A stretch of 64,000 nucleotides of DNA from a virus. The DNA lies in the IMG/VR virus record IMGVR_UViG_3300025154_000088, positions 1 through 64,000 of that record. One strand, 5' to 3'. Position 1 is the stretch's first letter, and each line of letters opens with the position of its first letter. Below are positions 11,798 through 63,352 of the stretch, one piece after another. A program made the translations under genes and the position numbers. Below the pieces are notes generated by a model. It saw only the letters and a program-made list of their open reading frames with translations, was not told where the DNA came from and searched no databases.

Positions 11798-12198
11798 ACA
11801 TGGCTGGAACAATGGTTTTCGGGGCTCCTGTAGAAAATAACGATTCTTACACTCGGTCAAGGTCCATCGAAATTACGGCAGCCTGTACGGGTGATGCTTC
11901 GGATGGGACGGTTCCCACCACGGCGATCCCGCTGGATCTTCGGGGGATGTTTCTTTATTCCCTGGAAACCGTGCCGGGGTCTGGTGATGCTGCCCCTTCA
12001 GCGGTTTATGACGTGACGGTTGTAAACTCCAGATCGACCGATCTTTTACAGGGGACAGGAGAAGACAGGAGCGTCACCGTGAAAGAAATCGCCTACCCGT
12101 CTTCGGCTCCTGCTTCAATTATGGGGGCGTGCTCCTTGACCTGCGGATCTTTGGGGGCATCGAATACCGCAACCCTTACGCTTAATTTCAGGAGGTAG
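11794..12198 (+). CDS. Small virion protein, probably beta-rich
   Basis: A protein of 134 residues, rich in Thr, Ser, Val and Ala with few charges, as in a beta-sandwich virion protein. It overlaps the giant gene's stop by four bases (ATGA). A second ATG at 11800 follows a better ribosome site (AGGGGG), so the true product may be two residues shorter. Directly downstream is the tailspike gene, so a tail or spike-associated role is likely. I do not recognise the family. Confidence 0.65.
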   Translation: MNMAGTMVFGAPVENNDSYTRSRSIEITAACTGDASDGTVPTTAIPLDLRGMFLYSLETVPGSGDAAPSAVYDVTVVNSRSTDLLQGTGEDRSVTVKEIAYPSSAPASIMGACSLTCGSLGASNTATLTLNFRR

Positions 12199-12200
12199 CC

Positions 12201-14084
12201 ATGTTCCCATCTTTCTTCTCAATGTGGAAAAGGTTAGCCAGTGGAGTTCTCACCCCCGTCAACTCCAGTGATTCCGTTAATATCCCAGGTTCCGTAACCA
12301 TTGGGGATACGGCCTTTGCCCTGACGTATGCACAGCTCAAGGCAAACGACACAGCCGGGAAATCTTCAGCCCTTGCGGCGGACATCACGCTCACCGAGCA
12401 CTTTACCCCTACAATGCCCATAGACACAAACGGGCATTCGATCACGCTCGGGGCGTACAATCTTATTTTCACTTCTTGCCAGCCGAAAAAATTGACAGAT
12501 GGATGTTTTGTGCAATCAGGAAGTGGGGCTGTGTCTGGGCTGAAAAACTCATCTCCTGATTATTTTGGAGTTACAAATGTAAACGATAATCAGGCATTTG
12601 TAAATGCTATTGCTGCTGGGAATGGCCATATTACATTGACGGCAAGAGAATACACTTTGACGGCCAGCTTGGATTCAGTAACCAATTCAAATATTTATAT
12701 TTCTGGGTCGTTAAGTGCTTTCAAATTCCGAGATGATACTACAACCCAGATGGCTGTAATTAATTTAGACGACACGGCCATCGTTGGTGCATATGCATCA
12801 GGCACCGACACGGTTACATATTCATCCCAACTCAAACAATTAAACAATGTTGTTCTTAAAGCACAAAATAGCGCCAAATATGCAGCTATAGGAAACTTTT
12901 TTTATGCAAAGATACACGATATCCATATTGATGGTTTTACAGATCATGGCATTTGGTCAGTCGGAAGTGTAATATCATCTTTTGAGAATATTTCAGGGTA
13001 TAATGTTGGTGTTGGAAAATCGACTACAGGAGCGCTAAATGCAGATACGTTCATAGATGGGTGTCTATTATTATTGGAGGCGAGCACAACACAAAGTGAC
13101 GGGACACCACACCCATCCGGAGAAGTAGGTAATCATGCATACTGTAGGGTGTTTGCATCTACTAATTTTTCAAGCACACTTCAGATCTCAAACATATTCT
13201 CTGAATTTGCTGCGACGACAACCACATCGTTTAAAACCCTTATTGCGTTTAACGTAAGATCATCTACTCTGACCAATGTGAATGGATATAGTGGGGCATG
13301 GTTTGGATATTGTTCAATTAATCTTGTGTCTCCGCACTTTGAGGTCTATTCTACTGGTGGAGCAGTAGCAGCCGATGGAACCCCGCTATCCTTAGTGTCG
13401 TTTAACTCGTCGATAAAAGAGAGTAACCCGGTATATACAGAAGATGTCAGATATTTGAGAACCACTGCATTTGGAGTTAATACTGACTATTGGGGATATA
13501 GTGCGGCAATAGATAATAAGCATGTTTTTAGCCATGCCCATATTGCCGAAATGACCCTTGGCGATTATAAACCGGACAGTGAATCATATGCAATAACAAG
13601 AGTCCCTGGATTGGGATCAATAAACAATCCGAGAATTGCTTATGATGCAACCACTGGATCAGTTTTGGCAAGCAAGGGAACTACATACACACCCATACTC
13701 GGAATTCCATTGTATGTAAGCGATACTGTAGCGAGTGGGGGATACGAAGATGTCGATTCCTCAATTATTGCGCCATCATCAACTCTTGGCGACACAGTCG
13801 GTAATATGATTTATGATTTAGATGTTCAGATAGTGGATTTAAATTTTGGGAGAGTTTATTACCACGGATCCTGGAAGGCCGTACGGCAGAATGAGGCCGG
13901 GAATTATTCAATCAGGTTCTACGAACTGGGGCATATTGATAATAATGCCCCTGGTGGTGGTTTTACTGTTGCTGAAAACGGAGCTGGACCATATACGTTA
14001 CGCGTATCAAATGGGACAGCGTTTGGCTATACCTATATCGTGTATGGTAGATGTATAGGAGTTACCGGGTCGGCTACTCCGTGA
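12201..14084 (+). CDS. Tailspike / receptor-binding protein
   Basis: A protein of 627 residues behind AGGAGG. The N-terminal 90 residues are GC-rich in codon use like the neighbours and likely dock the protein on the virion. From about residue 95 the gene turns AT-rich, and the protein becomes rich in Ser, Thr, Asn, Gly and aromatics with repeated short strands (for example VINLDDTAIVGAY, IHDIHIDGFTDHG). This is the look of a right-handed beta-helix spike. The last 80 residues return to GC-rich coding and may be a cap or trimerisation domain. In P22-like phages such spikes bind or cut surface polysaccharide. No catalytic residues can be assigned without a structural match. Confidence 0.75.
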   Translation: MFPSFFSMWKRLASGVLTPVNSSDSVNIPGSVTIGDTAFALTYAQLKANDTAGKSSALAADITLTEHFTPTMPIDTNGHSITLGAYNLIFTSCQPKKLTDGCFVQSGSGAVSGLKNSSPDYFGVTNVNDNQAFVNAIAAGNGHITLTAREYTLTASLDSVTNSNIYISGSLSAFKFRDDTTTQMAVINLDDTAIVGAYASGTDTVTYSSQLKQLNNVVLKAQNSAKYAAIGNFFYAKIHDIHIDGFTDHGIWSVGSVISSFENISGYNVGVGKSTTGALNADTFIDGCLLLLEASTTQSDGTPHPSGEVGNHAYCRVFASTNFSSTLQISNIFSEFAATTTTSFKTLIAFNVRSSTLTNVNGYSGAWFGYCSINLVSPHFEVYSTGGAVAADGTPLSLVSFNSSIKESNPVYTEDVRYLRTTAFGVNTDYWGYSAAIDNKHVFSHAHIAEMTLGDYKPDSESYAITRVPGLGSINNPRIAYDATTGSVLASKGTTYTPILGIPLYVSDTVASGGYEDVDSSIIAPSSTLGDTVGNMIYDLDVQIVDLNFGRVYYHGSWKAVRQNEAGNYSIRFYELGHIDNNAPGGGFTVAENGAGPYTLRVSNGTAFGYTYIVYGRCIGVTGSATP

Positions 14085-17939: not shown

Positions 17940-18941
17940 TCAGAGGGAATCGACGGCCCGTTTTTTGCCTGCAAAGGCAATGTGTGTATAAATTTGGGTG
18001 GTTGTGATCTCCTCATGCCCTAAAAGCTCCTGGATGGTCCGGAGGTCCTGCCCGTTCTCCAGCATGTGGGTTGCGAAGGAGTGGCGCAGCATATGGGGAG
18101 TGACTCGCTTCGTGATCCCGGCCCTTTTCATGGCTCCCCAAAGAGCCCGGCGCATGTCTGTAGGAACCCGGCCTGGGTTTTTACGTTTCCGCTGGAGGGA
18201 TGGAAATACCAAATCGCTGACGACATTTTGACAACATAGGTGCTCTTCCATGGCCTTTTTGACTTCTGGATGCATCGGAACAATCCTGGTCTTGCCCCCC
18301 TTCCCTGTCACCCGCATGTAGCCAGGAGCCGGCATCACGTCCTTCGTCTTGAGGTTGAATACCTCGTCCATCCTGAGCCCGCCGTAATAGAGGCAGCACA
18401 GCATCGCCCTGTGATAGGGATCGGAATGGGTGATGATGGCCTCGATTTCGCCTTTTGAGAGGACCTCCGGCAGAGGCCGTCGGTACGGGAGGGGCTTCAT
18501 CCGGATCGGCTCATCGTTGCATTTCCCGTGTTCGTGGGCGTATTTCCAGAGGGCGGACAGGCACAGAAGTTCCAGGTTGATCATCCGCTTTTTGTCCCCG
18601 ATCTCGGAAAGCCTTTTGCCCTTGTATTTTTCGATCAGATCCTTGGTAATGAAATCAAGGTGCATCTGGCCGAAAAACGAGGTTATCGCCCCGTAAAGCA
18701 TCCTGTGTTTATCGCCGTAGGTCCTGGGTCTCTGATTGGTTTTAACGTATTGGAGGTAATCTGGGATGATTTCTGCGATGGTCAGAGCGTCACGGACAGT
18801 CCCGCCAAGCTTTTTCTTGAGTTTGATGTGGAAGAGGTTGGCCTCGGATTCAGTCCCTTCGAACCGGACCCTGTGCCTGCGGTCCCGCCCGATGGAAACA
18901 TCGATCTCCCACCTTCCCTCAGATATTTTCCTCACGGCCAT
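17940..18941 (-). CDS. int: Tyrosine-family integrase
   Basis: A protein of 333 residues. The N-terminal part (1-60) is an arm-type domain, a SAM-like core-binding helix bundle spans about 55-155, and the catalytic domain follows. Catalytic set visible: R190 (YGGLRMDE), Lys in VTGKGGKTR (about 214), H283 and R286 (HMLRH), H309 (LLGHE), nucleophile Y318 (QIYTH). All are present, so it should be active. It would recombine attP with a tRNA-Lys gene. It is the last gene of the left operon and sits right beside the attP core, as is usual. ATG 18941 is preceded by GAGGG. Confidence 0.93.
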   Translation of the reverse strand: MAVRKISEGRWEIDVSIGRDRRHRVRFEGTESEANLFHIKLKKKLGGTVRDALTIAEIIPDYLQYVKTNQRPRTYGDKHRMLYGAITSFFGQMHLDFITKDLIEKYKGKRLSEIGDKKRMINLELLCLSALWKYAHEHGKCNDEPIRMKPLPYRRPLPEVLSKGEIEAIITHSDPYHRAMLCCLYYGGLRMDEVFNLKTKDVMPAPGYMRVTGKGGKTRIVPMHPEVKKAMEEHLCCQNVVSDLVFPSLQRKRKNPGRVPTDMRRALWGAMKRAGITKRVTPHMLRHSFATHMLENGQDLRTIQELLGHEEITTTQIYTHIAFAGKKRAVDSL

Positions 18942-33854: not shown

Positions 33855-34031
33855 TCATTCCTCGGTCGGAAGGTCTTTGATCTTTTCCTGCACAGGGAAA
33901 AATTCGTTTCTTGGTAAAGGTCTGATCGACATCCGGCATTCATTGTTGATGCACCAGACGACCTTGCCGTTTGTCGCCACCAGACCAAGCCCGCAGGCCG
34001 GGCAGCTATCAGGGAGCCACCAGTTACGCAT
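33855..34031 (-). CDS. Small zinc-finger protein
   Basis: A protein of 58 residues. CPACGLGLV and WCINNECRM form a four-Cys site. ATG 34031 lies inside the last codons of the Rha-type gene, so translation is coupled. Function unknown. Confidence 0.55.
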   Translation of the reverse strand: MRNWWLPDSCPACGLGLVATNGKVVWCINNECRMSIRPLPRNEFFPVQEKIKDLPTEE

Positions 34032-34767
34032 GGATGGGCTCCATCGTTTCAAGGGAAAGCTGAAGCTGTTCTCGGTGCTCGATCTGGTTCATGGGGACAG
34101 GGGTTTTTCCTACCGTCTCAGCGAAGGCAGCAACCTTGTCCCGTGCCAGGACGTAGATTTCCTTGTAGGGCATCGACTTTTCCATGCCTTCACGGATTGC
34201 GTTTTGGGCGATGAATTCTGAGGTCTGAAGAAAGGAGAGCTGCATCCCGGTGAGCATGTCCCGGAAGGTTTGGCCGTATCGGTTTTCGATGATGAAAAGA
34301 GCCTTATTAGTCGCCTTGGAGATCAGGGTGTAATACCATTCGGCCTTTGTCGATCCCTGGGCTTCAGCGTAGGCGATAAAATCCTGAACCGTGTCGGTAA
34401 GTTCGTGCCGGGCGGCTTTGCCCTGGGAGCGGAGTTCCTGCCAAGACTGGTTGGCCTGACGGCGAAGGACTTCTTCCATGGAGTTGAAAGCGGAGATGTA
34501 TTTGATCTTCCATTCAGCGGCCTTTTTCCCTGTGAAACCCATGGCCAGGAAGGTGAACCCGTCGCGGGTCATTTCTATAACAGGCTGTTCCTTGCCCTGC
34601 TGATCGAGGTATGAGGTCTCCGCGAAATTGCGGAGAGCGAAATCTTTTGGAATTTCGAGTTCTCTGATTTTCCGGAGAACGGTATCGTGTCGCTTCCCGA
34701 ATTTTTCGGCAACGAGCAGGCTGGTTGTGGTGGGTCTATTTTTCTTCAGAATTACGAGGTCGGTCAT
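34024..34767 (-). CDS. rha: Rha-family phage regulatory protein
   Basis: A protein of 247 residues; ATG 34767 lies behind GGAGGG. The N-terminal Rha domain (about 12-95) shows KFGKRHDTVLRKIREL, QPVIEMTRDGFTFLAMGFTG and KKAAEWKIKYISAFN, all typical. The C-terminal 150 residues are helical with an EWYYTLISKATNKALF stretch. Rha proteins are early phage regulators whose action differs between phages. It is the first gene of the left operon, right behind a consensus promoter with a repressor operator. Confidence 0.85.
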   Translation of the reverse strand: MTDLVILKKNRPTTTSLLVAEKFGKRHDTVLRKIRELEIPKDFALRNFAETSYLDQQGKEQPVIEMTRDGFTFLAMGFTGKKAAEWKIKYISAFNSMEEVLRRQANQSWQELRSQGKAARHELTDTVQDFIAYAEAQGSTKAEWYYTLISKATNKALFIIENRYGQTFRDMLTGMQLSFLQTSEFIAQNAIREGMEKSMPYKEIYVLARDKVAAFAETVGKTPVPMNQIEHREQLQLSLETMEPIHA

Positions 34768-34794
34768 GGTTCCCTCCGTTGTGGTGTTGGAGGG

Positions 34795-34822
34795 ATTATA
34801 CATTAATGGATTGACGTGTCAA
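34795..34822 (-). promoter_or_regulatory. Leftward early promoter (PL-like)
   Basis: On the minus strand TTGACA and TATAAT, both perfect consensus, are separated by 16 bases. The first gene (Rha-type) starts about 28 bases beyond the -10 box. This would drive the long left operon down to the integrase. The 13-bp operator motif lies 8 bases upstream of the -35 box. Confidence 0.8.
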
Positions 34823-51154: not shown

Positions 51155-51925
51155 ATGGCAGGGCAAGTGTGGGCTGTGGACAGCGTGGGCGGGTATATGT
51201 CCGCCGAAAATCTGTCCAAAAAGCTCCGCATGGCCGTTCAGCCTCAGGTGAAGTTTCGGCAGTTTTGCGATGTAAAGGATGCATCTCAGCAGGGGAAGAA
51301 AAAAGGAGATCAATTCCACTGGGACGTTTACCTGGACATCGCCACTCAGGGCACGACCGTCGCGGAGACAAACACGGTCCCGGAATCCAATTTTACCATC
51401 GTTCAGGGCACCCTCACCATCGATGAGGCGGCCCATGCGATTCCGTATTCCGGGAAACTCGACGACCTTTCCGAGCACCCCTTGACGGAGATCATCAATA
51501 AGGTGCTCAAAAACGACGCCAAGAAGTTTTTCGACATCTCGGCGCACGCTCAATTCGACACCTGTCTTCTGCGGGTCTACCCGACCGGCGGGACGGCAAC
51601 CGACGCGGTAACGCTGGCGACCACCGGGACAGTCGGCGGGACCAGCACCAAGGCACTGAACACCGGGCATGTCAAGGCAATCGTGGACCTCATGAAAGAA
51701 CGGAACATCGTTCCCTACACCGGGGATGATTATTACGCGATTTCCTGGCCGTCCACCTACCGGACCTTCAAGAACGCACTGGAGACAATTCACCAGTACA
51801 CCGCCGAAGGCTTCGGGATGATCGCAACCGGTGAAATCGGTCGGTACGAAAACTGCCGGTTCATCGAACAGACCCATGTGGCAAAGGCGGGCACCACCTA
51901 CACGGATTGGTGCTTCTTCTTCGGT
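51155..51925 (+). CDS. Major coat protein, exon 1 (residues 1-257)
   Basis: The coat protein is 312 residues after joining 51155-51925 with 52853-53020. It resembles the N4 gp56-like / P22-gp5-region coat family: VWAVDSVGGYMSAENLSKKL, DQFHWDVYLDIAT, and the long central beta-helical domain. The frame runs on into the intron for 39 codons before a stop, so an unspliced product would end in unrelated residues. Exon 1 ends ..FFFG at a T, the required base before a group I splice site. AAGGAG lies 7 bases before ATG 51155. Confidence 0.87.
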
Positions 51926-52852
51926 AAATTCTTTGCCGCTTGTTGCAGTAATGCAGCAATGATAACCTCGTTAATTGCTGGAAAGCTAAAGGCATTCGTG
52001 CCCATGCCAATCAGCAGCCAAGCTCTGCCGAGTGTGGCATGAGAAGGTTCAACGACTATCCCGAGAGGGAGTACATCGCAAGTGCGATGGAAAAGCGAGG
52101 CATCCGGAAACGGATGAAGATATAGTCTCATCTCATGGGAAACCATGAGCAGTCTTTTAAGACGGTGCAAACAGAGAATGGAATCAATCATTAAAGCCGA
52201 TATGCAAAAATGCAAAGTGTACGCGCTTTCATCCAGTGAAAATGGAAGAATCCGCTATATCGGCCAGACCATACAGTCACTAAGCAGGAGGCTTGCCCAA
52301 CACATAGCAGACGCAAAAAGGTTTGCGGAGAGCAAAAGCTACCTGCACAGGTGGATTCGCAAAACATTGAGGAATGGGTACAACTTGCAAATCAACCTCA
52401 TCGATAGTGATTGTGTGGTGGATTTATCTGAAGCCCAGTGGATTGCCTGTTTCAGAAAAACCACCCCGGATCTTGTAAATACCGAAGATGGCGGCAAGAC
52501 CGGAAAATTAGGACACAAACTCTCTGATGAAACAAAAGCTAAAATGCGAGGCCCGAAGTCCGTTACCCATCGGGTAAATATCAGTAAAGGGCTTAGGGGA
52601 ACGCATTCTGAAAAGAGGTCTTTGTCCCAGGTGGGGAATAGCAAATCGAAAGGCGAATCAAACAGGCACGCTGTTCTTACAGAAAATCAGGTGATTGAAA
52701 TAAAGAGAGAACTTAAATCCGGTTGCGTTGGCTCCGAACTTGCCAGAAAGTACGGGGTCCAGAAATCAGCAATCAGCAAGATAAATGTGGGAAGAAGTTG
52801 GAAACACATCCGGATATAAGGCTCTCCATGACGGGTTTGCACGAAGACCATG
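51926..52852 (+). ncRNA. Group I self-splicing intron in the coat gene
   Basis: Core elements are clear: Q-like AATCAGCAGCCAAGC (about 52009); R element GTTCAACGACTATCCC (about 52048); P8 hairpin CATCCG-GAAA-CGGATG (52101-52116); S element AAGATATAGTC (52117-52127), whose ATAGTC pairs with R's GACTAT (P7); P9 CTCATG / CATGAG just after. P1: exon CGGT pairs with guide GCCG at 51935, giving the conserved U-G pair at the cut. The intron ends in G (52852). Joining at these points restores a 312-residue frame. Length 927 bases. Core sequence resembles subgroup IA of phage introns. Confidence 0.88.
52145..52819 (+). CDS. GIY-YIG intron-encoded homing endonuclease
   Basis: 224 residues from the first ATG, but that start lies in the P9 helix; ATG 52178 or 52202 is likelier. 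GIY-YIG core: KCKVYALSSS and RIRYIGQT, then SRRLAQHIADA and WIACFRK. A NUMOD-like spacer (TKAKMRGPK, VNISKGLRGTHSE) and a C-terminal helix-turn-helix (VIEIKRELKSGCVGSELARK, KSAISKINVGRSWK) recognise DNA. It would cut intron-free coat genes so that repair copies the intron. More AT-rich than its surroundings. Confidence 0.88.
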   Translation: MSSLLRRCKQRMESIIKADMQKCKVYALSSSENGRIRYIGQTIQSLSRRLAQHIADAKRFAESKSYLHRWIRKTLRNGYNLQINLIDSDCVVDLSEAQWIACFRKTTPDLVNTEDGGKTGKLGHKLSDETKAKMRGPKSVTHRVNISKGLRGTHSEKRSLSQVGNSKSKGESNRHAVLTENQVIEIKRELKSGCVGSELARKYGVQKSAISKINVGRSWKHIRI

Positions 52853-53020
52853 GAAGACACAGTCGCAGAAGCAATTGCAGTACCCGAAGAAATGCGTGGA
52901 AAAATCCCCGGCGACTTCGGAAGATCCAAGGGGGTGGCGTGGTACTATCTCGGGGGCTTCGGCCTTGTTCATACCACTGTTGCCCAGGTCCGTGTCGTCA
53001 AATGGGAATCGTTGGCATAA
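52853..53020 (+). CDS. Major coat protein, exon 2 (residues 258-312)
   Basis: Continues the coat frame from EDTVAEAIAVPEEMRGKIPG to GGFGLVHTTVAQVRVVKWES and a TAA at 53018. The GF-x-L-x-HT strand near the end is typical of the C-terminus of N4-gp56-like coat proteins. It has no start signal of its own, so it needs splicing to be made as part of coat. Confidence 0.87.
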   Translation, partial: EDTVAEAIAVPEEMRGKIPGDFGRSKGVAWYYLGGFGLVHTTVAQVRVVKWESLA

Positions 53021-53033
53021 GGGAGGCTAAACC

Positions 53034-53582
53034 ATGAGTTTCTATTCCGACGGAAAATTCGGGCAGAGGAATCGGAAATGGTTTGGCCTCGGAGCGAAAT
53101 GGGGCGGGGAGATGTCTCCCTATATGTACTCCAGCTTCGCAACGCTGACCATTTCCGAAAAGGGAGTCAAGGCGGGCGGATTCTTCCTTGGCACCCACGA
53201 CCCGGGGACACTGACCCATGTGGAAAAGTGGTATCCCCCTGGACCGATCAGCATCAAAAAGATCGGTGTTTTCGTGTGCTCCACCCTCGTCAACGCTTCG
53301 GGTGCGGGAATGAACTTCCAGTTCCTGACCCGGGGGGCTTCGGCATCGGTCATCGGGACCGTGAAGATGGCATCCTGTACCGTGGCGGAAGCGGCCAAGG
53401 CGAGCAAGAGCAGCCTGACCGTCACCCAGTGCAAAGCGGGCGAGTACATCACCATCAAGTCCTTCGAGCCGACGACCTTTAGCGCCACGGCCTCGGAGAA
53501 AAAGGCGACCACCACCGGGCGGGCCGCATTCTTCATCGACTGGGTTCCGAAGTTCGACATCGATGGAAGATGGGACGATTAA
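53034..53582 (+). CDS. Virion protein downstream of coat (possible decoration protein)
   Basis: A protein of 182 residues behind GGGAGG. Beta-rich, Ser/Thr/Ala-rich, few charges (ITIKSFEPTTFSATASEK; GTVKMASCTVAEAAKASKSS). Position right after the coat and its amount of beta structure suggest a head decoration or stabilising protein; no family recognised. Confidence 0.6.
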   Translation: MSFYSDGKFGQRNRKWFGLGAKWGGEMSPYMYSSFATLTISEKGVKAGGFFLGTHDPGTLTHVEKWYPPGPISIKKIGVFVCSTLVNASGAGMNFQFLTRGASASVIGTVKMASCTVAEAAKASKSSLTVTQCKAGEYITIKSFEPTTFSATASEKKATTTGRAAFFIDWVPKFDIDGRWDD

Positions 53583-53853: not shown

Positions 53854-54014
53854 TGCTACTCGACACCAGATTCAAGATCTCCGTCCTCAAGGCCCTCGGG
53901 ATGATCCTTTGGTGGGTGGCATTCAAGATGGACAAACTTCACTCAGGCTCTTACCTCACAACCGTAAAGGAGATAGACGACCTTGCGAACGAACTCAAGA
54001 GCACAAGCTCTTAA
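53853..54014 (+). CDS. 53-residue protein with a membrane-like helix
   Basis: ATG 53853 overlaps the previous stop (TAATG). ISVLKALGMILWWVAFKMDK is a possible membrane segment; the tail is acidic helix. It overlaps the glycosyltransferase start by 32 bases. Confidence 0.5.
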   Translation: MLLDTRFKISVLKALGMILWWVAFKMDKLHSGSYLTTVKEIDDLANELKSTSS

Positions 54015-55074
54015 ACTCGGCTTCGTGGCGGGCCATTGCTGCATTCGTGTGCAGAAAATGGCAATCCCGTTGATGGAGCATTGCGGGCATACGGTCTATC
54101 TGTGCAGCCAGAAACTACCCTCCATGGCGCACAGTTACGACATGTTTTGCCAGGCGTTTTCCATTCATCAGCTTCGGAACTGGATCCGGATTGTCGACCA
54201 CGCTGTAGACCTCTACCACGTTCATAACGAACCGAGTTGGTTTGTAACAGCCATCAAGGAAGTATCCGACAAGCCGGTCATCCTCGACGTTCACGACTCC
54301 TTCCTTGCCCGGGTGACTCCAGAGGAGCACGACAAACACATTGCGGACGGTAAAAACGTCATCCGGATCACCCCGGAGGAAAGAAACAATTTCCAGCTTG
54401 CAGACGGGCTTGTCTTCCCGGCGAGGCCCTTTGCCGACCTTATCATTTCGGAATACGGGCTGAAACAGCCGCACTGCATCCTTCCGAGCTACCTCCCCCA
54501 CAACCTCCACGGATACCAGCAGAACAAGGACTGGTACGGGGGTCTGGTCTACGAGGGCCGGGTGGATCTTCCGGAAAAGATCCAAGAGGAATTCGAGCAT
54601 TCGGCAGGGTTTACCTACACCGATTATTCCGACCTCGCCCGGCAATGCAAAGACATCGGAATCGATTTCCACATCTACGCCAGGGGGGATGAGGCTTTCC
54701 TCAAGGTCTACAAGGATATCGCCGTACCTCACAAGCCCGAGGCCTTCAACGTCCTGATCGAAAAGCTTTCCAGGCATGACTGGGGGCTGGTGGGAAACTC
54801 TTTCCATACCCCGGAATGGGAAGTCGCCCTTCCCAACAAACTCTGGGAATATGTCGCCGCGGGGACTCCGGTAGTCTCGATCAACGCCAAGCATTCATCG
54901 GAGGTCATCGAAGAACACGGGATAGGGATTACGGTCAACTCCATACAGGAACTGGCCGACAGGTGGGCAGAGCATACCGAGATCCGGAAGCACCTCTTGA
55001 AGGTTCGTGGGAAGTTCACCATGGAAAATAACATCCATGTCCTTGAAGACCTTTACCGGGAGGTGCTCCAATGA
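53983..55074 (+). CDS. Glycosyltransferase (GT-B type)
   Basis: 363 residues from TTG 53983, which has AAGGAG 10 bases upstream; an ATG at 54057 would cut off the first strand (LKLGFVAGHCCIRVQ). The fold shows the GT-B halves: VDHAVDLYHVHNEPSWF, KPVILDVHDSF, and in the second half LPNKLWEYVAAGTPVVSINA, the nucleotide-sugar site of GT4-like enzymes. It should move a sugar onto an acceptor. First enzyme of the sugar cassette; tightly followed by a methyltransferase (ATGA overlap). Confidence 0.75.
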   Translation: MRTNSRAQALKLGFVAGHCCIRVQKMAIPLMEHCGHTVYLCSQKLPSMAHSYDMFCQAFSIHQLRNWIRIVDHAVDLYHVHNEPSWFVTAIKEVSDKPVILDVHDSFLARVTPEEHDKHIADGKNVIRITPEERNNFQLADGLVFPARPFADLIISEYGLKQPHCILPSYLPHNLHGYQQNKDWYGGLVYEGRVDLPEKIQEEFEHSAGFTYTDYSDLARQCKDIGIDFHIYARGDEAFLKVYKDIAVPHKPEAFNVLIEKLSRHDWGLVGNSFHTPEWEVALPNKLWEYVAAGTPVVSINAKHSSEVIEEHGIGITVNSIQELADRWAEHTEIRKHLLKVRGKFTMENNIHVLEDLYREVLQ

Positions 55075-55682
55075 CCCCCGAAGAAAACGCCTATTGGGAC
55101 ATGGTGGCCGACACGGCCGTAAGGGGTGAAGTGGATGTCAATTACTGGAAGATCGCCCAGATCGTGCGGAGAGTTCTCAAGTACGACCTTTGGGGGTCTA
55201 CCGTAATCGAGATTGGGGCCGGCATACCGTTTGTCGCCATGAATCTTTTGAACATGGTGAAATTCCAATATAACGGCCTTGAGCCTTCAGCGAGATTCAG
55301 GGACGCAGCCGTGTCGATGTTGGGGATACAACTCAAAGCGGCTTCCGCATACGCATTGCAATGCCGAAGCCAGTCCGCCGATTTCTTTTTCGCCTTTGAC
55401 GTTCTGGAGCATGTTTCACGAGACGACCGAGATCGGTCCTACCAGGAAATCGGAAGGGTGCTCAAGCCCGGAGGGCTGATGCTCATCCACAATCCATGCG
55501 AAGGAAACTACCAGGGCCACAAGAAGAAATTCGAACCGGGATTCAGCCTTCAAGACCTTCAGCTTCTGATCGATACTGCCGGCATGAAGCTGGCAGAGAT
55601 CGAGGTTTACGCCATCACCCTTCCGACCAAAAACGGTCCCGATATCAGGGAATACCAATGGATAACGCTGGTCAAAAAATGA
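55071..55682 (+). CDS. SAM-dependent methyltransferase (class I)
   Basis: A protein of 203 residues. Motif I STVIEIGAGIPFV, acidic FFFAFDVLEHVS, then IGRVLKPGGLMLIHNPCEG: standard for sugar/small-molecule methyltransferases. No nucleic-acid motif. With glycosyltransferases on both sides, it probably methylates a sugar or glycan. Confidence 0.8.
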   Translation: MTPEENAYWDMVADTAVRGEVDVNYWKIAQIVRRVLKYDLWGSTVIEIGAGIPFVAMNLLNMVKFQYNGLEPSARFRDAAVSMLGIQLKAASAYALQCRSQSADFFFAFDVLEHVSRDDRDRSYQEIGRVLKPGGLMLIHNPCEGNYQGHKKKFEPGFSLQDLQLLIDTAGMKLAEIEVYAITLPTKNGPDIREYQWITLVKK

Positions 55683-55693
55683 AAGGAGAAGCT

Positions 55694-57391
55694 GTGAACA
55701 TCAAAGAATATTGGGATCATGAATGGTCCCGTCGCATCGTCGAAGGCGGTGTGCTGATGAACAAAGAGAAATTCAAATACCTTGTCAAGCAGCTTTGGAA
55801 AAGGCCGTATCTGATTCCGCTTCGAAAGCTGGAGGTCGGGTGCGGGTCCGGGGTACATATCAGGGAGCTTTCTTCGCTGTGTAAAGAGTGGTCAGGAAAT
55901 TATACTGGTTTCGATCTGTCCGAAACAGCCGTAAAATTTGCGAAAAGACAGGGGCTGAACGTATGGCACGGCGACATTACCGGAGATAGAAAAATAAGCC
56001 AGTCTCCATACGCCCCGGTGGGTCCGTTTCAGCTTTTCCTCTTCCTGGATGTCCTCGAACACATGACCGACCACCAAGCGGTCGCCGCGAAGGTCCGAGA
56101 ACTTGCCGACCCGGAAGGCTTCATCATCTTCGGCAACGTCCCCCTTTACCGTTCGAAACATGAGACGGAAGGCGGATTCGAGCGGGAGATGGACATCCAT
56201 GTTCTTCGGAAGTTCATGGAGGCCTGCGGAATCGAAAAGTTCGATCACCACGTTTACGGGATCGACGGCTGGCCGTACATGATCTTTGAGGGAGGCGTGG
56301 AGCGCGGGGCTGCAAGAAAGACCGAAGAGACCACGGAGATCAAGGTAACGAAAGAAGAAGCGGCTATCATCAACAGGCCGGTACATTCCGGTCAAACATG
56401 GGCGCCTACCCCAGGGGGCGGCTTCAAGCAATACCTGGAAACCTGGAAAAAAACTCATCCATCCAAAAAAGCCCTTCGCGTTTTGATCCGGACCCCCTGG
56501 GAGAATTCGTGGATTCCGCTTTACGAGAAGGTTTTTTTGGAGCGTGGGCACCAATACGCATGGCAGCGAAAAGATTCAAATTTGGTATTGCTTGAAGATG
56601 GTAGGGCCGCAGAGCCTCCTCATATTGTTCTCCACATGTGGGCAAACGACCCCGGGGCTCTTGACTATTACCCGGACGCGAAGCAAATCGTCTTCATGCG
56701 CAGGTACGAATTCTTCGAAGGCCACTGGCTCAATTACCAGTGGGACCGAGTATCCCATCTCATCTTCTGCAACGACTGGATCAAGGAGCAGACCGAACAA
56801 ATCGCCAAGGATCGGGGGATCAAACTTCCGCCGACGCACCTGATTTACAATGCCGTCGATCTCGATAAATGGACGTTCAAGGAGCGGGGCCCCGGGAACA
56901 AAATCGGCATGGCCTGCCACGTTCACCCGAAGAAGAATCTCCCCCTTGCGCTCCAGATCCTTGCGGCCCTCCCCCGGGAATACGAGCTCCACATCGCCGG
57001 AGCAATTCAGGACGATGCGACGGCCTACTACATTCAGCATGTCGGGAAGGCTTTGGGGCTGAAGGTCAAGCTGCACGGCCACATCCCCCACAGCCAGATG
57101 GATCAATGGTGGGAAGACAAGAACTACTGCCTTTCGACATCGATTTCCGAGGGGAATCCGAACAATGTGATCGAGGCCATGGCGAAAGGGATACAGCCCA
57201 TCGTTCACAACTGGCCGGATGCTGCCCCTCAATTCAAAGGCGAAGGCGTATTCGACAAGGTTTCAAAGGCAGCGACCTACATCATCAATGTGCATTATGA
57301 TTCATCTCTTTACCGTAAAATTGTTGAAGATCATTTCAGCCTCGACAACTACCGCCAAGTCGTAAGCCTGTGCGAGAAGGTGTGCGGATGA
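55694..57391 (+). CDS. Fused methyltransferase-glycosyltransferase
   Basis: A protein of 565 residues; GTG 55694 is chosen for AAAGGAG (an ATG at 55679 is in frame). Residues 1-200: class I methyltransferase (LEVGCGSGVHIRELSSLC, LFLFLDVLEHMTDH). Residues 250-560: GT-B glycosyltransferase (HLIYNAVDLDKWTFKE, PPCH-type loop HVHPKKNLPLALQI, LHGHIPHSQMDQWW, TSISEGNPNNVIEAMAKG), the last being the typical E-x7-E nucleotide-sugar motif. One chain could add a sugar and methylate it. Confidence 0.8.
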   Translation: MNIKEYWDHEWSRRIVEGGVLMNKEKFKYLVKQLWKRPYLIPLRKLEVGCGSGVHIRELSSLCKEWSGNYTGFDLSETAVKFAKRQGLNVWHGDITGDRKISQSPYAPVGPFQLFLFLDVLEHMTDHQAVAAKVRELADPEGFIIFGNVPLYRSKHETEGGFEREMDIHVLRKFMEACGIEKFDHHVYGIDGWPYMIFEGGVERGAARKTEETTEIKVTKEEAAIINRPVHSGQTWAPTPGGGFKQYLETWKKTHPSKKALRVLIRTPWENSWIPLYEKVFLERGHQYAWQRKDSNLVLLEDGRAAEPPHIVLHMWANDPGALDYYPDAKQIVFMRRYEFFEGHWLNYQWDRVSHLIFCNDWIKEQTEQIAKDRGIKLPPTHLIYNAVDLDKWTFKERGPGNKIGMACHVHPKKNLPLALQILAALPREYELHIAGAIQDDATAYYIQHVGKALGLKVKLHGHIPHSQMDQWWEDKNYCLSTSISEGNPNNVIEAMAKGIQPIVHNWPDAAPQFKGEGVFDKVSKAATYIINVHYDSSLYRKIVEDHFSLDNYRQVVSLCEKVCG

Positions 57392-58239
57392 ACTTCGCCC
57401 TCATCGGTGCAGCCGGCTTCGTAGCCCCCAGGCACATGAAGGCCATCAAAGACATCGGCGGGAACCTTGTCGCAGCCCTGGATCCTCATGACGCGGTTGG
57501 GGTGATCGATTCCTATTTCCCCGAGTGCGATTTTTTCACCGAGTTCGAACGATTCGACCGGCACTGTGACAAGCTTCGCCGGCAGGGCAAGGGCATCGAC
57601 TTCGTTTCCATCGCGTCACCGAACTACCTTCACGATTCCCAAGCCAGATGGGCGCTCCGGATGGGGGCCGACGCCATTTGCGAAAAGCCCATCGTGTTGA
57701 ACGAGCGCAACCTCGACGGCCTTCTTGAAATCGAGCGGGAGACCGACCGGAAAGTCTGGGCAGTGCTTCAATGCCGGCTTCATCCGTCAGTATCAGGTAT
57801 CCCAGGGGGATGGAATATCCCCCACATGCCAAATATCGACATCGAATATTCGACTCCCCGCGGCAATTGGTATCGCCATTCCTGGAAAGGGGATGAAAAG
57901 AAGTCCGGGGGAATCGCAACCAACATCGGGGTTCACCTTTTCGATCTTTGTGCCTGGCTTTTCGGGAAAATGGAGAACGTGGTTTCTATCCGTCAGTCCG
58001 AAGACACCATCAAAGGCATTCTCCGGCTTCGCACGTCCGAGGTGTCCTGGCGGCTGAGTATCGACAAGGCAGAGCGACCGAAGCGGATCTTCAGAATCAA
58101 CGGAACCGACTACGACCTGACCAACGGGTTTACCGATCTTCACACGGAAGTCTACCGGAGGATCATCGAAGGAAAAGGCTTCGGAATTGAGGACGCCCGG
58201 GAAGCCATCCGAATCTGTGAGGCTATACGCAATGCCTGA
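57388..58239 (+). CDS. wlbA-like: UDP-GlcNAcA 3-dehydrogenase-like oxidoreductase (WlbA/WbpB type)
   Basis: A protein of 283 residues; ATG 57388 overlaps the previous stop. [20 protein letters not shown] is the NAD site in the WlbA wording; ICEKP holds the catalytic Lys; [20 protein letters not shown] is the substrate loop with its His. WlbA oxidises C3 of UDP-N-acetylglucosaminuronic acid. Slightly shorter than usual (about 315-350). Its product is normally transaminated and then acetylated; the acetyltransferase gene follows. Confidence 0.83.
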
Positions 58240-58744
58240 CATCCACCCTACCGCAATCATCGACAATGGGGCCATCATCGGCCAGGGCTCAAAAATCTGG
58301 CATTTTTGCCACGTCATGAACGGAGCCGTCATCGGGGCCGGATGCACCATCGGGCAGGGGTGTTTTATTGCCCCTGCCGTTTTCATCGGGAACCGGGTGA
58401 AAATCCAAAACGGGGTTTCGGTTTTTACCGGGGTTCACATCGAAGACGATGCTTTCGTAGGTCCTTGCGTAACTTTCACCAACGTCCTGAACCCCAGAGC
58501 TTTCATGGACAAGAAACAGGAGTTCCGGCACACGGTCATCAAGAGGGGAGCCACGATCGGAGCGAACGCTACTCTGGTTTGTGGGGTCACGATTGGGAAA
58601 TACGCCATGATCGGCGCCGGGGCTGTGGTGATCAGAGATGTTCCCGATTTCGCTTTGATGGTCGGAAACCCTGCCCGTCAAATTGGCTGGGTGGACAAGG
58701 AAGGACATTCCAGAAAGGACATGCCGAATGGACAAATGCTCTAA
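58232..58744 (+). CDS. wlbB-like: Sugar N-acetyltransferase (WlbB/WbpD type)
   Basis: A protein of 170 residues; ATG 58232 overlaps the dehydrogenase by 8 bases. Left-handed beta-helix hexapeptides throughout ([35 protein letters not shown]). FTNVLNPRA and [18 protein letters not shown] are typical of WlbB/WbpD, which acetylate the 3-amino group of UDP-2-acetamido-3-amino-2,3-dideoxyglucuronate. Complete by length. Confidence 0.83.
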
Positions 58745-58895
58745 AAAGGAAATGGAAAGGGGCTGGAAGACGGTTCCATCGGAGCCCTACGACCCGGAAG
58801 ACGTTGAGCGGGCCAAACTGGAGAAGGAATACCCCTTCATGAAAAACGAAACAGAGGGCGGCTTTGCCGGCCGGCCGAAAGGATGGGAGAGGTGA
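58728..58895 (+). CDS. 55-residue hypothetical protein
   Basis: ATG 58728 lies inside the acetyltransferase end. Charged, with [20 protein letters not shown] and a Gly-rich tail. It overlaps its neighbour on each side. Unknown. Confidence 0.5.
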
Positions 58896-59203
58896 CGTTC
58901 GAACCAGAACATAAAACCGCTCAAATACAAATAGAGTGGTGGACGTGCCCAGACAAAAAGCACAGACACAGAACGCGAGAAACAGCATTGTGGTGTGCCC
59001 ATAAACAAAGCAGAAAAGGCAAAAAGACCCAAGTCAGGTGGACGGATGACAACTTGGATAAAATCTGTGATCAGCGAGCAGGCGGCATGACCTATGAAGA
59101 AATCGGCTCCTATTGGAACATAAGCCAGTCTCGGGTGCGGCAAATTTTAACGGAAGAGAAAATCAGATATCGAAGAAGAAGAAACAAGGAGATGAAATGC
59201 TGA
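58883..59203 (+). CDS. Small helix-turn-helix protein (sigma-region-4-like)
   Basis: A protein of 106 residues. The second half reads DICDQRAGGMTYEEIG-like: CDQRAGGMTYEEIGSYWNIS followed by QSRVRQILTEEKIRYRR, a helix-turn-helix like sigma region 4 or homing-type DNA-binding modules. The N-terminal half is a Trp/Cys/His segment (WWTCPDKKHRHRTRETALWC) that may bind metal. It lies inside the sugar cassette and may regulate it. Confidence 0.55.
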   Translation: MGEVTFEPEHKTAQIQIEWWTCPDKKHRHRTRETALWCAHKQSRKGKKTQVRWTDDNLDKICDQRAGGMTYEEIGSYWNISQSRVRQILTEEKIRYRRRRNKEMKC

Positions 59204-59718
59204 CACTGAACAAACGAAAGCCGTTCGGAACAGTCCACGGCGTAGGAGAGGCAAGGTTCGAGCAGGACGGGGTTCTATTCGATGCAGGAGAAAAGGGTAT
59301 CGGAGGGCCGAAATACGAACAGCGTCTCGCAGAAATGAAGGCCCGGGAGACCGCCGACGCATCGCAGGGATGTCCTGCCTGTAAAAACTGGATCAGCGGA
59401 GAAGCCTTCGAGTGCGCCGACTGCGGGACTTCCTGGAAGCTCGTTGCCGGGTTTCCCCAATCAAGGTGGGTGGCCACCCCGAAGCAGGCCCCTCCGGCTC
59501 CGGTAGAGCCGATTCCTGTACAGCCGGCCCCTGCTTTCGAATTCCCGGAGCCAACGGAGGTCATCCGCCTTCCCGACGCGGAAAACTTCGACGACCTTTC
59601 CCCGAAGGAGATTGAAAACGCCCTGAAACATTTCGCGGTCGAATTCAACCCCCGGGCTCACATCGGGACGAAACGGCAGATGCTTCGTGAAAAGATGGCC
59701 GAGGAGGGCATGCTGTGA
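59197..59718 (+). CDS. Zinc-ribbon protein with a Pro-rich linker
   Basis: A protein of 173 residues; ATG 59197 lies behind AAGGAG. CPACKNWI and FECADCGTSWKL form a four-Cys ribbon (about 60-85); a Pro/Ala linker follows (about 93-120); the end (SPKEIENALKHFAVEFNPRA, KRQMLREKM) is helical, possibly HeH/SAP-like. Overlaps the next gene by four bases. Function unknown. Confidence 0.55.
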   Translation: MLTLNKRKPFGTVHGVGEARFEQDGVLFDAGEKGIGGPKYEQRLAEMKARETADASQGCPACKNWISGEAFECADCGTSWKLVAGFPQSRWVATPKQAPPAPVEPIPVQPAPAFEFPEPTEVIRLPDAENFDDLSPKEIENALKHFAVEFNPRAHIGTKRQMLREKMAEEGML

Positions 59719-61256
59719 CGTGGAGTCTGGAAAATTCCCAGGGAAACGAATCCCTGAAGATCCGATGGGAGATCGTCCCCTACACGAGGGGAAAGGTTCT
59801 CGATCTGGGGTGCGGGCCATTCAAGGGGTATCCCCATTTTATCGGAGTCGATTCCTGTAAGGATTCTGGCCTGTTTGGGGGAAGGGTCAAACCGGACGTG
59901 GTCTGTGATTGCGAAAACCTTTCAATTTTCGCTTCGCAGTCCATCGACGCTGTTTTTTCCTCTCATCTTCTGGAGCATATCGTCAAATGGGAGGATGCCC
60001 TAAAAGAATGGTGGAGGCTCGTAAAGCACGGCGGGGTCATGGTTCTTTACCTTCCCCACAAGGATTTTTATCCAAACGTCGGTAAAGTCGGATCAAATGT
60101 CGATCACGTTCACGACTTCACCCCTCAAGACATTATCGACTGGATGGAAGGATGCCCTGGCGGGTGGGATCTTCTGGTCAACGAAGAGCGAAACGGAGAA
60201 GATGAATATTCGTTCCTACAGGTTTACAGAAAACGACAGGGCCACCAGAAAAACCATGCCTGGAAAGATCCAAAACCTTCGAAAAGGGCATGTGTCGTTC
60301 GGTACGGAGGGGTTGGGGACATGCTCATGGCATCGTCCATCCTCCCAGGACTGAAAGACCAGGGGTATCACGTCACCTTCAACACGACTCCGAACGGGTA
60401 CGAGATCTTGAAGGAGGATCCCCACGTTGACGAATGGATGATCCAGGACCGGGACCAGGTTCCGAACGGGGCACTTCCGGAATACTGGGGAGCCCTTTCA
60501 AGGAAGTTCGACAAATTCGTGAACCTTTCAGAATCAATCGAGGGGACCCTTCTCGCCATCCCTGGAAGACCGAATCACCGTTGGCCGGACAACCTCCGGA
60601 AAGTTCTTCTCGACGGGAACTACCTCGCCTTCACCCATGCCCTTGCGGGGGTTCCATTCGAACCGAGACAGAAGTTTTATCCGACCGCGAAGGAAAAGGA
60701 GTGGGCGGAGAAATACCGTAAAAAGCTCGGTGGACAGGTGGTCATGTGGGCGCTTTCCGGGTCTTCGGTTCACAAGGCCTGGCCCTATCTCGATGCGGCG
60801 ATAGCCGGCCTGATGATTGAATATCCCCTTGTGAAGGTGGTCCTGGTCGGTGGGGAAACGGAAAAGCTCCTTGAATCAGGATGGGAGAACGAACCAAGGG
60901 TCATCCGGAAATCCGGGGAGTTTTCCATCCGTGAAACCCTGGCCCTCGCCGAGGTCTGCGATCTTGTTGTGGGACCGGAAACGGGAGTCTTGAATTCGGT
61001 CGGGTTTCTGGGTGTTCCGAAAATCGTTTTCCTTTCCCATTCGTCGGTCGAAAATCTCACCCGGGACTGGAAAAACTGCGTCTCTCTTGTCCCCGATGGG
61101 TGTGGATGCTGGCCTTGTCACCAGATGCATTACGGGTTTGAGCACTGCAAAAGGGACGAAGCTACAGGGGTTGCTGAATGCGCGGCGAAGATCCCAATTG
61201 AGGACTTCAGGGACGCCGTTTACCATCTTCTCGGGAAACCGACAGGGATCAGGTGA
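59715..61256 (+). CDS. Fused methyltransferase and GT9-like glycosyltransferase
   Basis: A protein of 513 residues; GTG 59715 overlaps the previous stop. Residues 1-175: small class I methyltransferase (GKVLDLGCGPFKGYP, AVFSSHLLEHIVKWED). Residues 190-510: GT9 heptosyltransferase-like GT-B fold (KRACVVRYGGVGDMLMASSI at the start of the acceptor lobe; LAEVCDLVVGPETGVLNSVG at the donor lobe). GT9 enzymes usually add heptose to LPS core. Second fusion of this kind in the cassette. The next gene is a tail-assembly protein. Confidence 0.8.
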   Translation: MTWSLENSQGNESLKIRWEIVPYTRGKVLDLGCGPFKGYPHFIGVDSCKDSGLFGGRVKPDVVCDCENLSIFASQSIDAVFSSHLLEHIVKWEDALKEWWRLVKHGGVMVLYLPHKDFYPNVGKVGSNVDHVHDFTPQDIIDWMEGCPGGWDLLVNEERNGEDEYSFLQVYRKRQGHQKNHAWKDPKPSKRACVVRYGGVGDMLMASSILPGLKDQGYHVTFNTTPNGYEILKEDPHVDEWMIQDRDQVPNGALPEYWGALSRKFDKFVNLSESIEGTLLAIPGRPNHRWPDNLRKVLLDGNYLAFTHALAGVPFEPRQKFYPTAKEKEWAEKYRKKLGGQVVMWALSGSSVHKAWPYLDAAIAGLMIEYPLVKVVLVGGETEKLLESGWENEPRVIRKSGEFSIRETLALAEVCDLVVGPETGVLNSVGFLGVPKIVFLSHSSVENLTRDWKNCVSLVPDGCGCWPCHQMHYGFEHCKRDEATGVAECAAKIPIEDFRDAVYHLLGKPTGIR

Positions 61257-61259
61257 TTC

Positions 61260-61973
61260 ATGACCACATCCGGATCTTATACAATCACGGTCACGGCGCA
61301 AAACCTCATTGAGGCGGCCATGCAGGCTTTAGGGCTTTTGGCCTCCGGGGAGTCGTCTACGACCGCCGAACAAACCGATGCAATCCGGGTCTTGAATTAC
61401 TGGATCCTCCAGATGAAGGGAAGAAAAAACGGATTTTCGAAGGGCTTAAAAATGTGGCAGCGCGAAACGGCGGAGCTCACCCTGACCGCAACAGCCACCT
61501 ACCTTTTGAAGCCTTCAGGCGGGGCGCTTGCCATCCAGATCCCGGAAGAAATCCTTTCGGCTTCCCTTCGAACCTCGGCGGATATCGATACCCCCATGTC
61601 TGAAATGACCCGGGAAGAATACGATGCCATTTCGAACAAAGCCGCAACCGGTGATCCGACAAGATACCTTTACGAACGGAAACTCACGGACGGGACTTTG
61701 ATTCTCGATAGGGTTCCCTCGGATACGACAAAGACTATTTTTTTCACCTACCGTCAACCGATCGAGATAGTCAGTGCGGCGGCAAACAACCTTGACTGGC
61801 CGGACTACTGGCACCGGGCTGCGGTCTACGCTCTATCCCGGGAGCTCGCTCCGATCTTCGGGGCAATGAAAAACTTTCAAGTCGTGAGCGGGTTCTATGC
61901 GGAGGCCATGGCCCTGGTTGATTCTTTCGAGCCTGAAACCCTTAACCTTTATTTTGAGCCTGGTAGATCATGA
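61260..61973 (+). CDS. Head-tail adaptor (P22 gp4-like)
   Basis: A protein of 237 residues. AQNLIEAAMQALGLLASGES near the N-terminus, RVLNYWILQMKGRKNGF, LDRVPSDTTKTIFFTYRQPI, and WHRAAVYALSRELAPIFG are the usual order for the tail accessory/DNA-stabilising adaptors of P22- and T7-like phages (gp4/gp11 type). Stop overlaps the next start. It should bind the portal ring. Confidence 0.7.
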   Translation: MTTSGSYTITVTAQNLIEAAMQALGLLASGESSTTAEQTDAIRVLNYWILQMKGRKNGFSKGLKMWQRETAELTLTATATYLLKPSGGALAIQIPEEILSASLRTSADIDTPMSEMTREEYDAISNKAATGDPTRYLYERKLTDGTLILDRVPSDTTKTIFFTYRQPIEIVSAAANNLDWPDYWHRAAVYALSRELAPIFGAMKNFQVVSGFYAEAMALVDSFEPETLNLYFEPGRS

Positions 61974-63352
61974 AGCTTCCTTTTCTTGCCCCAGAGGGCG
62001 ATAGCGGGAACTTCCCGATAAATCTCTTCCACCACCCCCAGGCTTTAAGCGGGAAGCCGGGATGGGTGGGAACTCCCGGGGCGAAGGATTTCTGTGACAT
62101 CGGAGCTTCAGTTCCGATCAGGGGCATGAGGGTTGTGGGTTCTGTTCTGTATGCCGTCGCCGGAAACAAATTCTATTCCATCGACGCGAACGGGACCGAA
62201 ACAGAGCAGGGAACCCTCAACACCTCGACCGGATACTGCTGGATCGTCGATTGCGCGACCCAAATCATGATCATTGACGGGACCGACGGGTATACCTACA
62301 CCATAGCAACCGATACCTTTGCTGCCATCGCAGACGCGGATTTTCCGACGACTCCGGGAAGCGCGGCATATCAGGACGGGTATGGAATCGTTACGGTCAA
62401 CGCAGCGGCGACCTTCAACCTTTCGGCACTTCTCGATTTCACCGCTTGGGATGCCCTCGATTACGCCGGAGTTGATGGGTACAGCGATCCCCTCTTAACG
62501 GTGGTTTCGAATCTGAGGGAGCTTTTTCTTTTCGGGACGCAATCCCTCGAGGTGTGGCAGAACACAGGAAACGCGGACTTCCCTTTCGAGAGAATCCCTG
62601 GCGGTGTCATCATGAAGGGGTGCGGTGCTGCGGCTTCGGCCTGCGAGCACAACGATTCGGTTTTTTTTCTGGCCGATGACGCGACGGTCAACATGATTCC
62701 CGCGGGAACCTACAGCCCGAAGATCATCTCGCCACCTGCTTTGAACGACCTCATTTCAGCCTATGCGACGAAATCTGACGCTATCGGCTTCGGAATGACC
62801 TGGAAGGGGGACGACTTTTACGTTCTTTCCTTTCCGACCCAAAATATCACCTGGGTTTTCAATGTCTCGACGGGGCTCTGGCACCAGTGGGCATCCTACG
62901 CCAATAACGGCCGGCACAGGGCGAACTGCTACGCTTTTTTCAGCGGAAAGCACCTCGTGGGGGATTACGCGAACGGGAAAATATTCGAGCTCGATTCAGC
63001 GACCTACACGGACAATACCTCGAATGAAATCACGAGACAGAGGATCTTCGGACCAATCGATTCGGAAGATTTCCCGTGGGTCTTTCACGGATCGGTTGAA
63101 ATCGAGCTCAAGCCAGGAGTCGGAAACGTCAATGACACGGATCCGGTTTTAACCCTCTACTGGTCGGAAGACGACGGAAGGAGTTGGTCGACTGGGGTTG
63201 CGGTGGCCATAGGTCAATCTACGGAGACGACAAAAAGGGTCATCTGGAGACGCCTTGGGAAGTCCAGAAAAAGGCTTTACAAGCTGGTAGGGACCGACAA
63301 GGTACAGCACATCTTTACCGGGTTTTACGCCAACATCGAAAAGGGCGACTGA
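61970..63352 (+). CDS. Packaged-DNA stabilisation protein (P22 gp10-like)
   Basis: A protein of 460 residues. MKLPFLAPEGDSGNFPINLF start; repeats of beta propeller-like blades (LLTVVSNLRELFLFGTQSLE, FGMTWKGDDFYVLSFPT); WVFNVSTGLWHQW. P22 gp10, the tail hub that closes the DNA channel, has this wording. It sits directly after the adaptor, as in P22. Confidence 0.8.
   Translation: MKLPFLAPEGDSGNFPINLFHHPQALSGKPGWVGTPGAKDFCDIGASVPIRGMRVVGSVLYAVAGNKFYSIDANGTETEQGTLNTSTGYCWIVDCATQIMIIDGTDGYTYTIATDTFAAIADADFPTTPGSAAYQDGYGIVTVNAAATFNLSALLDFTAWDALDYAGVDGYSDPLLTVVSNLRELFLFGTQSLEVWQNTGNADFPFERIPGGVIMKGCGAAASACEHNDSVFFLADDATVNMIPAGTYSPKIISPPALNDLISAYATKSDAIGFGMTWKGDDFYVLSFPTQNITWVFNVSTGLWHQWASYANNGRHRANCYAFFSGKHLVGDYANGKIFELDSATYTDNTSNEITRQRIFGPIDSEDFPWVFHGSVEIELKPGVGNVNDTDPVLTLYWSEDDGRSWSTGVAVAIGQSTETTKRVIWRRLGKSRKRLYKLVGTDKVQHIFTGFYANIEKGD

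Follow-up and report, generated by a model that had tools for sequence, protein, structure and literature searches.

Glycosylation of phage virions is, in the literature searched, best documented for actinobacteriophages. In the virion operon of mycobacteriophage Corndog, the genes for an O-methyltransferase, two glycosyltransferases (GTs) and an N-acetylglucosamine (GlcNAc) transferase lie between those for portal and protease, and a modification of the capsid was proposed in 2015 (PMC4351075); glycans on capsid and tail tube were reported later (Freeman 2023, as cited in PMC12363180 and PMC12619734). The protein heptosyltransferase TibC carries four cysteines near its C-terminus (PMC4358343). 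Here, we describe a cassette of six co-directional enzyme polypeptides, four single-domain enzymes and two fusions, located between the genes for the major capsid protein (MCP) and the head-tail adaptor of a podovirus-like phage, which is surrounded by a large family of uncultivated relatives. It lies in a stretch of 64,000 nucleotides (positions 1 to 64,000 of IMG/VR virus record IMGVR_UViG_3300025154_000088; referred to as the window), which is contained in a virus contig of 65,351 bases. The interval has two layers, a GT9 gene as fixed late core gene and an exchangeable enzyme periphery, and we consider it probable, with moderate confidence, that it is a virion-glycosylation locus with which the phage builds and caps glycans on its own virion.

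Organization of the cassette

On the plus strand, the genes follow the order portal, scaffold, intron-split MCP, a protein termed g53034, cassette, SU10-type adaptor and a protein at the head-closure position. The cassette enzymes were assigned by comparison with Pfam, PDB and NCBIfam (aa, amino acids; SAM, S-adenosylmethionine) and are encoded in the following order:

53983–55074, plus strand: GT4-like glycosyltransferase with a TTG start (Pfam Glyco_transf_4 / Glyco_trans_1_4, E 3.5e-6 and 2.5e-5, slightly under the curated cut-offs)
55071–55682, plus strand: class I SAM methyltransferase (Pfam Methyltransf_11, E 9.7e-12)
55679–57391, plus strand: fusion of a methyltransferase (~aa 1–205) and a GT-B glycosyltransferase (~aa 310–565) (Pfam Methyltransf_11, E 7e-10; Glycos_transf_1, E 1e-8)
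57388–58239, plus strand: WbpB/WlbA-like sugar-nucleotide dehydrogenase, Gfo/Idh (PDB 3o9z WbpB, E 2e-84; 3oa2, E 3e-80)
58232–58744, plus strand: WbpD/WlbB-like sugar N-acetyltransferase, left-handed beta-helix (PDB 3mqg, E 1e-65)
59715–61256, plus strand: core gene, fusion of a methyltransferase (aa 1 to ~165) and a GT9 heptosyltransferase-fold domain (~aa 190–513), referred to as MT-GT9 (AlphaFold2 and Foldseek)

Overlaps of a few bases join the adjacent enzyme genes from GT4 through the acetyltransferase. Within 47–64 kb, promoter-like and terminator-like motifs were not more common than in shuffled sequences and thus no signal there splits the cassette from the head genes. An earlier sequence-only reading of the window had placed the cassette at 53983–61256, on this strand, tightly coupled and between coat and tail-assembly genes, all of which is borne out. 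Its count of five enzymes plus two fusions is corrected to four single-domain enzymes plus two fusions, with three other open reading frames (ORFs) interleaved, and its view that no system with this set had been described is not supported, since the virion operon of Corndog likewise includes genes for a methyltransferase and GTs.

Fixed core and exchangeable periphery

Relatives were retrieved using the MCP, the GT9 fusion and other cassette proteins as queries (L numbers below denote relatives). Of the MCP-selected relatives, 45 have a complete interval, and in 42 of these the GT9 gene is located between MCP and adaptor; the MCP gene lies upstream in all 47 GT9-selected loci having at least 5 kb of upstream sequence, and an adaptor ORF follows 105 of 109 distinct GT9 genes, being at most 150 nt away in 87. 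Since this position of GT9 recurs in about 100 distinct relatives, this core of the arrangement is beyond chance. On the MCP tree, GT9 presence amounts to one change with the GT-free relatives grouping together, and GT9 and MCP distances are correlated (Mantel r 0.46, 0 of 2000 permutations). GT9 is also missing from two isolates, PTXU04 and Vibrio phage 1.232.O, and viral contigs searched with the adaptor gave no match. Relatives are present in cultured Paraburkholderia, Pseudothauera and Aromatoleum genomes, the carriers including Paraburkholderia sp. C35, P. rhynchosiae WSM 3937, Pseudothauera rhizosphaerae and Aromatoleum anaerobium. The proposal that the cassette has a virion-linked role and is not a movable gene of lysogenic conversion is supported, as GT9 has kept its place between the MCP and adaptor genes in almost every relative; conservation and synteny in related phages, suggested as a check, apply to the GT9 gene, which is core and syntenic, and not to the other enzymes, which vary between relatives.

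The AlphaFold model of MT-GT9 is confident (predicted local distance difference test, pLDDT, 92; predicted template modelling score, pTM, 0.88), and its best Foldseek matches are GT9 proteins (3tov, E 9e-14; WaaF 1psw, E 6e-12; also WaaC). PF01075 was matched in 7 of 26 phage GT9 members, the window copy itself being without a match. Residues D202, K354 and T423 of MT-GT9 align with D13, K192 and T262 of E. coli WaaC, and these catalytic D, K and T residues are conserved across all aligned phage GT9 members. At the position of WaaC D261, a glutamate is present in 25 of 25 phage sequences (E422 in the window); therefore the donor may be other than ADP-L,D-heptose. In the alignment of 26 members, four invariant cysteines are found near the C-terminus of the phage GT9 proteins. 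This four-cysteine module was considered as a proof of a protein acceptor and rejected: Betaproteobacterial WaaF-type enzymes carry the module at looser spacing, and therefore it does not discriminate between acceptors. The module is absent from E. coli K-12 WaaF, WaaC and WaaU, and a stricter spacing pattern finds it in one host TibC-like protein only. Paraburkholderia sp. C35 (L214) encodes its own TibC-like protein heptosyltransferase.

The peripheral enzymes are variable, and those encoded in other members of the phage family comprise GT2, TylF and FkbM methyltransferases, a PIG-L deacetylase, a sulfotransferase, a cupin and radical SAM proteins. The window's GT4 is 79% identical to its counterpart in L025, in which the methyltransferase-GT fusion is also fused; in L012 the two halves are separate genes and in L019, L024 and L026 single genes are present. 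The six-gene set of the window is hence one state of a variable region and no fixed system, MT-GT9 being its only core. Radical SAM/SPASM proteins are encoded within the cassette of two relatives (L006, 9009–9992; L019, 13212–14222), and large fibre-like ORFs also occur in the MCP-adaptor gap of L061, L065, L118, L147 and L180.

The ORF directly after the MCP gene is of at least three types among the relatives, and a profile comparison of three post-MCP protein types revealed no convincing homology between types. In the window, this slot encodes g53034, a beta-rich protein that is a putative head decoration protein, assigned by its position. Even the nearest relatives have reached saturation at synonymous sites, the exception being g53034 with a ratio of non-synonymous to synonymous substitution rates (dN/dS) of 0.05 at dS 2.6; in L006 it is represented by a short C-terminal piece only. 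GT4 is found solely beside a g53034-type post-MCP protein, in eight of eight relatives and in the window, with 103 loci having neither and a single g53034, a remote match in L040, lacking GT4 (Fisher p 2e-11, kinship ignored). The MCP tree requires at least four changes in GT4. This co-occurrence is consistent with GT4 acting on g53034 and also with plain linkage of adjacent genes.

Probable virion glycosylation and competing explanations

The assignment to the virion is based on the gene context and on the Corndog precedent. A role in building the virion is suggested because GT9 is retained like a structural gene, no membrane segment was detected by hydropathy in the cassette proteins, and neither a GtrA flippase nor a membrane-bound GT of Gtr cassettes was seen in the cassette. 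MT-GT9 would be produced together with the head proteins and would attach a nucleotide-activated sugar to a virion protein, the donor being ADP-heptose or a relative taken from the Gram-negative host. The peripheral enzymes would make and cap a strain-specific glycan: GT4 would probably start on, or extend, the decoration-like g53034, the methyltransferase-GT fusion would extend and methylate the glycan, and the WbpB-like and WbpD-like pair would yield a 3-acetamido sugar donor, helped by host enzymes. The benefit may, as a speculation, be a changed exposure of the particle surface affecting stability, adsorption and shielding. More tentatively, and at somewhat less than an even chance, a dedicated MT-GT9 virion-glycosylation enzyme might be ancestral in the head operon of a large family of phages infecting Gram-negative bacteria, with modular enzyme sets matched to the type of decoration protein forming particle serotypes.

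Several points weigh against virion glycosylation. GT9 enzymes of known function act mostly on lipopolysaccharide (LPS). The decoration role of g53034 is positional, its AlphaFold2 model being of low confidence (mean pLDDT 64.5) with weak jelly-roll-like matches. Among the 30 window proteins scanned, the WbpA and WbpE steps were not found and only the WbpB and WbpD kinds are present. In most members, the methyltransferase domain of MT-GT9 looks intact; the domain or its SAM-binding motif is missing in L004, L005, L019 and L025, and because of these losses methylation seems to be dispensable where the GT is not. The link between GT4 and g53034 is based on about four independent contrasts, of which three agree, none opposes and one is tied (p 0.25), and neighbouring genes such as these may merely travel together.

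A less probable alternative is a modification of host LPS by the enzymes at a late stage of infection, e.g., by addition or capping of core heptose, the position in the head operon setting late timing only and the benefit being that superinfection is blocked or that progeny are kept from binding debris. Among solved structures, those most similar to the core enzyme belong to GT9 and include WaaF and WaaC, which are LPS heptosyltransferases; WbpB and WbpD are enzymes of O-antigen sugars, host WaaF-type enzymes carry the four-cysteine module as well, at different spacing, and the cultured hosts of the relatives are Gram-negative. However, phage genes that modify LPS are usually dispensable and movable, whereas the GT9 gene is fixed between two head genes in nearly all relatives; moreover, a Gtr-type flippase or membrane GT is missing from the cassette, and this reading does not explain why GT4 accompanies a single post-MCP protein type.

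Alternatively, loosely associated accessory genes might gather where the late operon has a tolerant gap, with targets varying per phage and no common function. The wide variation of the peripheral enzymes and the fibre-like and homing-endonuclease-like ORFs also gathered in the gap would fit this; the near-universal presence of GT9, its one change on the tree and the retention of its catalytic residues render it improbable. That the enzymes glycosylate or hypermodify phage DNA is very unlikely, as the cassette sits with the head genes and away from the replication genes, the scan of 30 window proteins, which covered neither small ORFs nor a 3021-aa protein, contained no base hydroxylase or modified-nucleotide synthase family (TET/JBP, hydroxymethylase and thymidylate-synthase-like families), and we know of no GT9 enzyme acting on DNA. 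Speaking for DNA as target are a partial C5-methylase match in the window, the radical SAM protein in two relatives and the ability of phage GTs to modify DNA (Pyle 2024, as cited in PMC12619734).

If virion glycosylation applies, it would be a long-retained trait of an abundant and environmentally widespread phage family that is also resident in culturable soil bacteria, and within GT9 the phage enzymes would form a branch that acts on proteins or has a new specificity. The natural variation in glycan enzymes would then offer a comparative system for asking what virion glycans do, and the cultured bacteria carrying relatives make an experimental test practical.

Neighbouring features and comparison with known systems

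The cassette is flanked and interrupted by the following features (HTH, helix-turn-helix):

51155–51925, plus strand: MCP exon 1, N4-gp56-like, splice point approximate (NCBIfam TIGR04387, E 3e-15, below the curated cut-off); product 47–76% identical to 11 relatives
51916–52852, plus strand: group I intron, ends approximate (Rfam RF00028, 103 bits at 51916–52149)
52145–52819: GIY-YIG-like ORF inside the group I intron
52853–53020, plus strand: MCP exon 2, start approximate (45–87%, mostly 67–87%, identity to the MCP C-termini of relatives)
53034–53582, plus strand: g53034, 182 aa, in the slot after the MCP as in relatives
58728–58895, plus strand: small ORF, 55 aa, interleaved in the cassette (similar C-terminal motif by eye in some relatives; no homologue by phmmer)
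58883–59203, plus strand: small HTH protein, sigma-70 region 4-like, interleaved (Pfam Sigma70_r4, E 8.5e-6)
59197–59718, plus strand: conserved head-operon protein with the N-terminal motif KPFGxV...YEQDG, interleaved, also in GT-free relatives and isolates
61260–61973, plus strand: head-tail adaptor, SU10 adaptor family (Pfam PF24175, E 1.6e-7)
61970–63352, plus strand: protein in the head-closure position (same place as the head-closure-annotated protein of a related Vibrio phage)

The product of 59197–59718 is likely a head-operon assembly protein. Group I introns are present in the MCP genes of the window, L006, L023, L025, L039, L040 and L195, at two different positions, and the single MCP gene of L023 has two intron matches. 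Because a tyrosine integrase (17943–18941, minus strand) and the phage regulatory protein Rha (34027–34803, minus strand) are encoded in the window, the phage is probably temperate. The late region contains a single ORF of 3021 aa (2732–11797), and the guanine-cytosine content decreases to 0.42–0.45 at 12001–14000 across an ORF of 627 aa that has no Pfam match and might encode a receptor-binding protein of recent acquisition.

Among known phages, Escherichia phage PTXU04 (Xuquatrovirus) and Vibrio phage 1.232.O share the order portal, MCP, small proteins and adaptor; they differ in that their interval is without GT by annotation or profile and represents the arrangement without cassette. Two window enzymes show strong sequence matches to the UDP-GlcNAc(3NAc)A-pathway enzymes WbpB and WbpD/WlbB, while the partners WbpA and WbpE were not found among the scanned proteins and the host would have to supply them. 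The phage enzyme shares with TibC-type autotransporter heptosyltransferases the GT9 fold and four cysteines in the C-terminal region, the latter being present in host WaaF-type enzymes as well; however, the cysteine spacing is x2-x9-x10 in the window compared to x2-x15-x11, no autotransporter is encoded nearby, and the TibC_1st N-terminal domain, present in a host TibC-like control, is absent from the Pfam tally of the 26 phage members. WaaC and WaaF share the GT-B fold with the phage enzyme, which has equivalents of WaaC D13, K192 and T262, and the phage family differs by its glutamate in place of WaaC D261, the fused methyltransferase and the different spacing of the four-cysteine module. 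With the two fusion proteins as tblastn queries against 50,697 phage records, the matches amounted to four weak, methyltransferase-only hits, and a sequence relationship to enzymes of known glycosylated phages was not found. Corndog (cluster O) is an actinobacterial siphovirus with its genes between portal and protease, for which no GT9 core or WbpB/WbpD is described, but its gp35–gp38 comprise an O-methyltransferase and several GTs encoded among the virion structural genes, and the window likewise has GT and methyltransferase genes at such a place.

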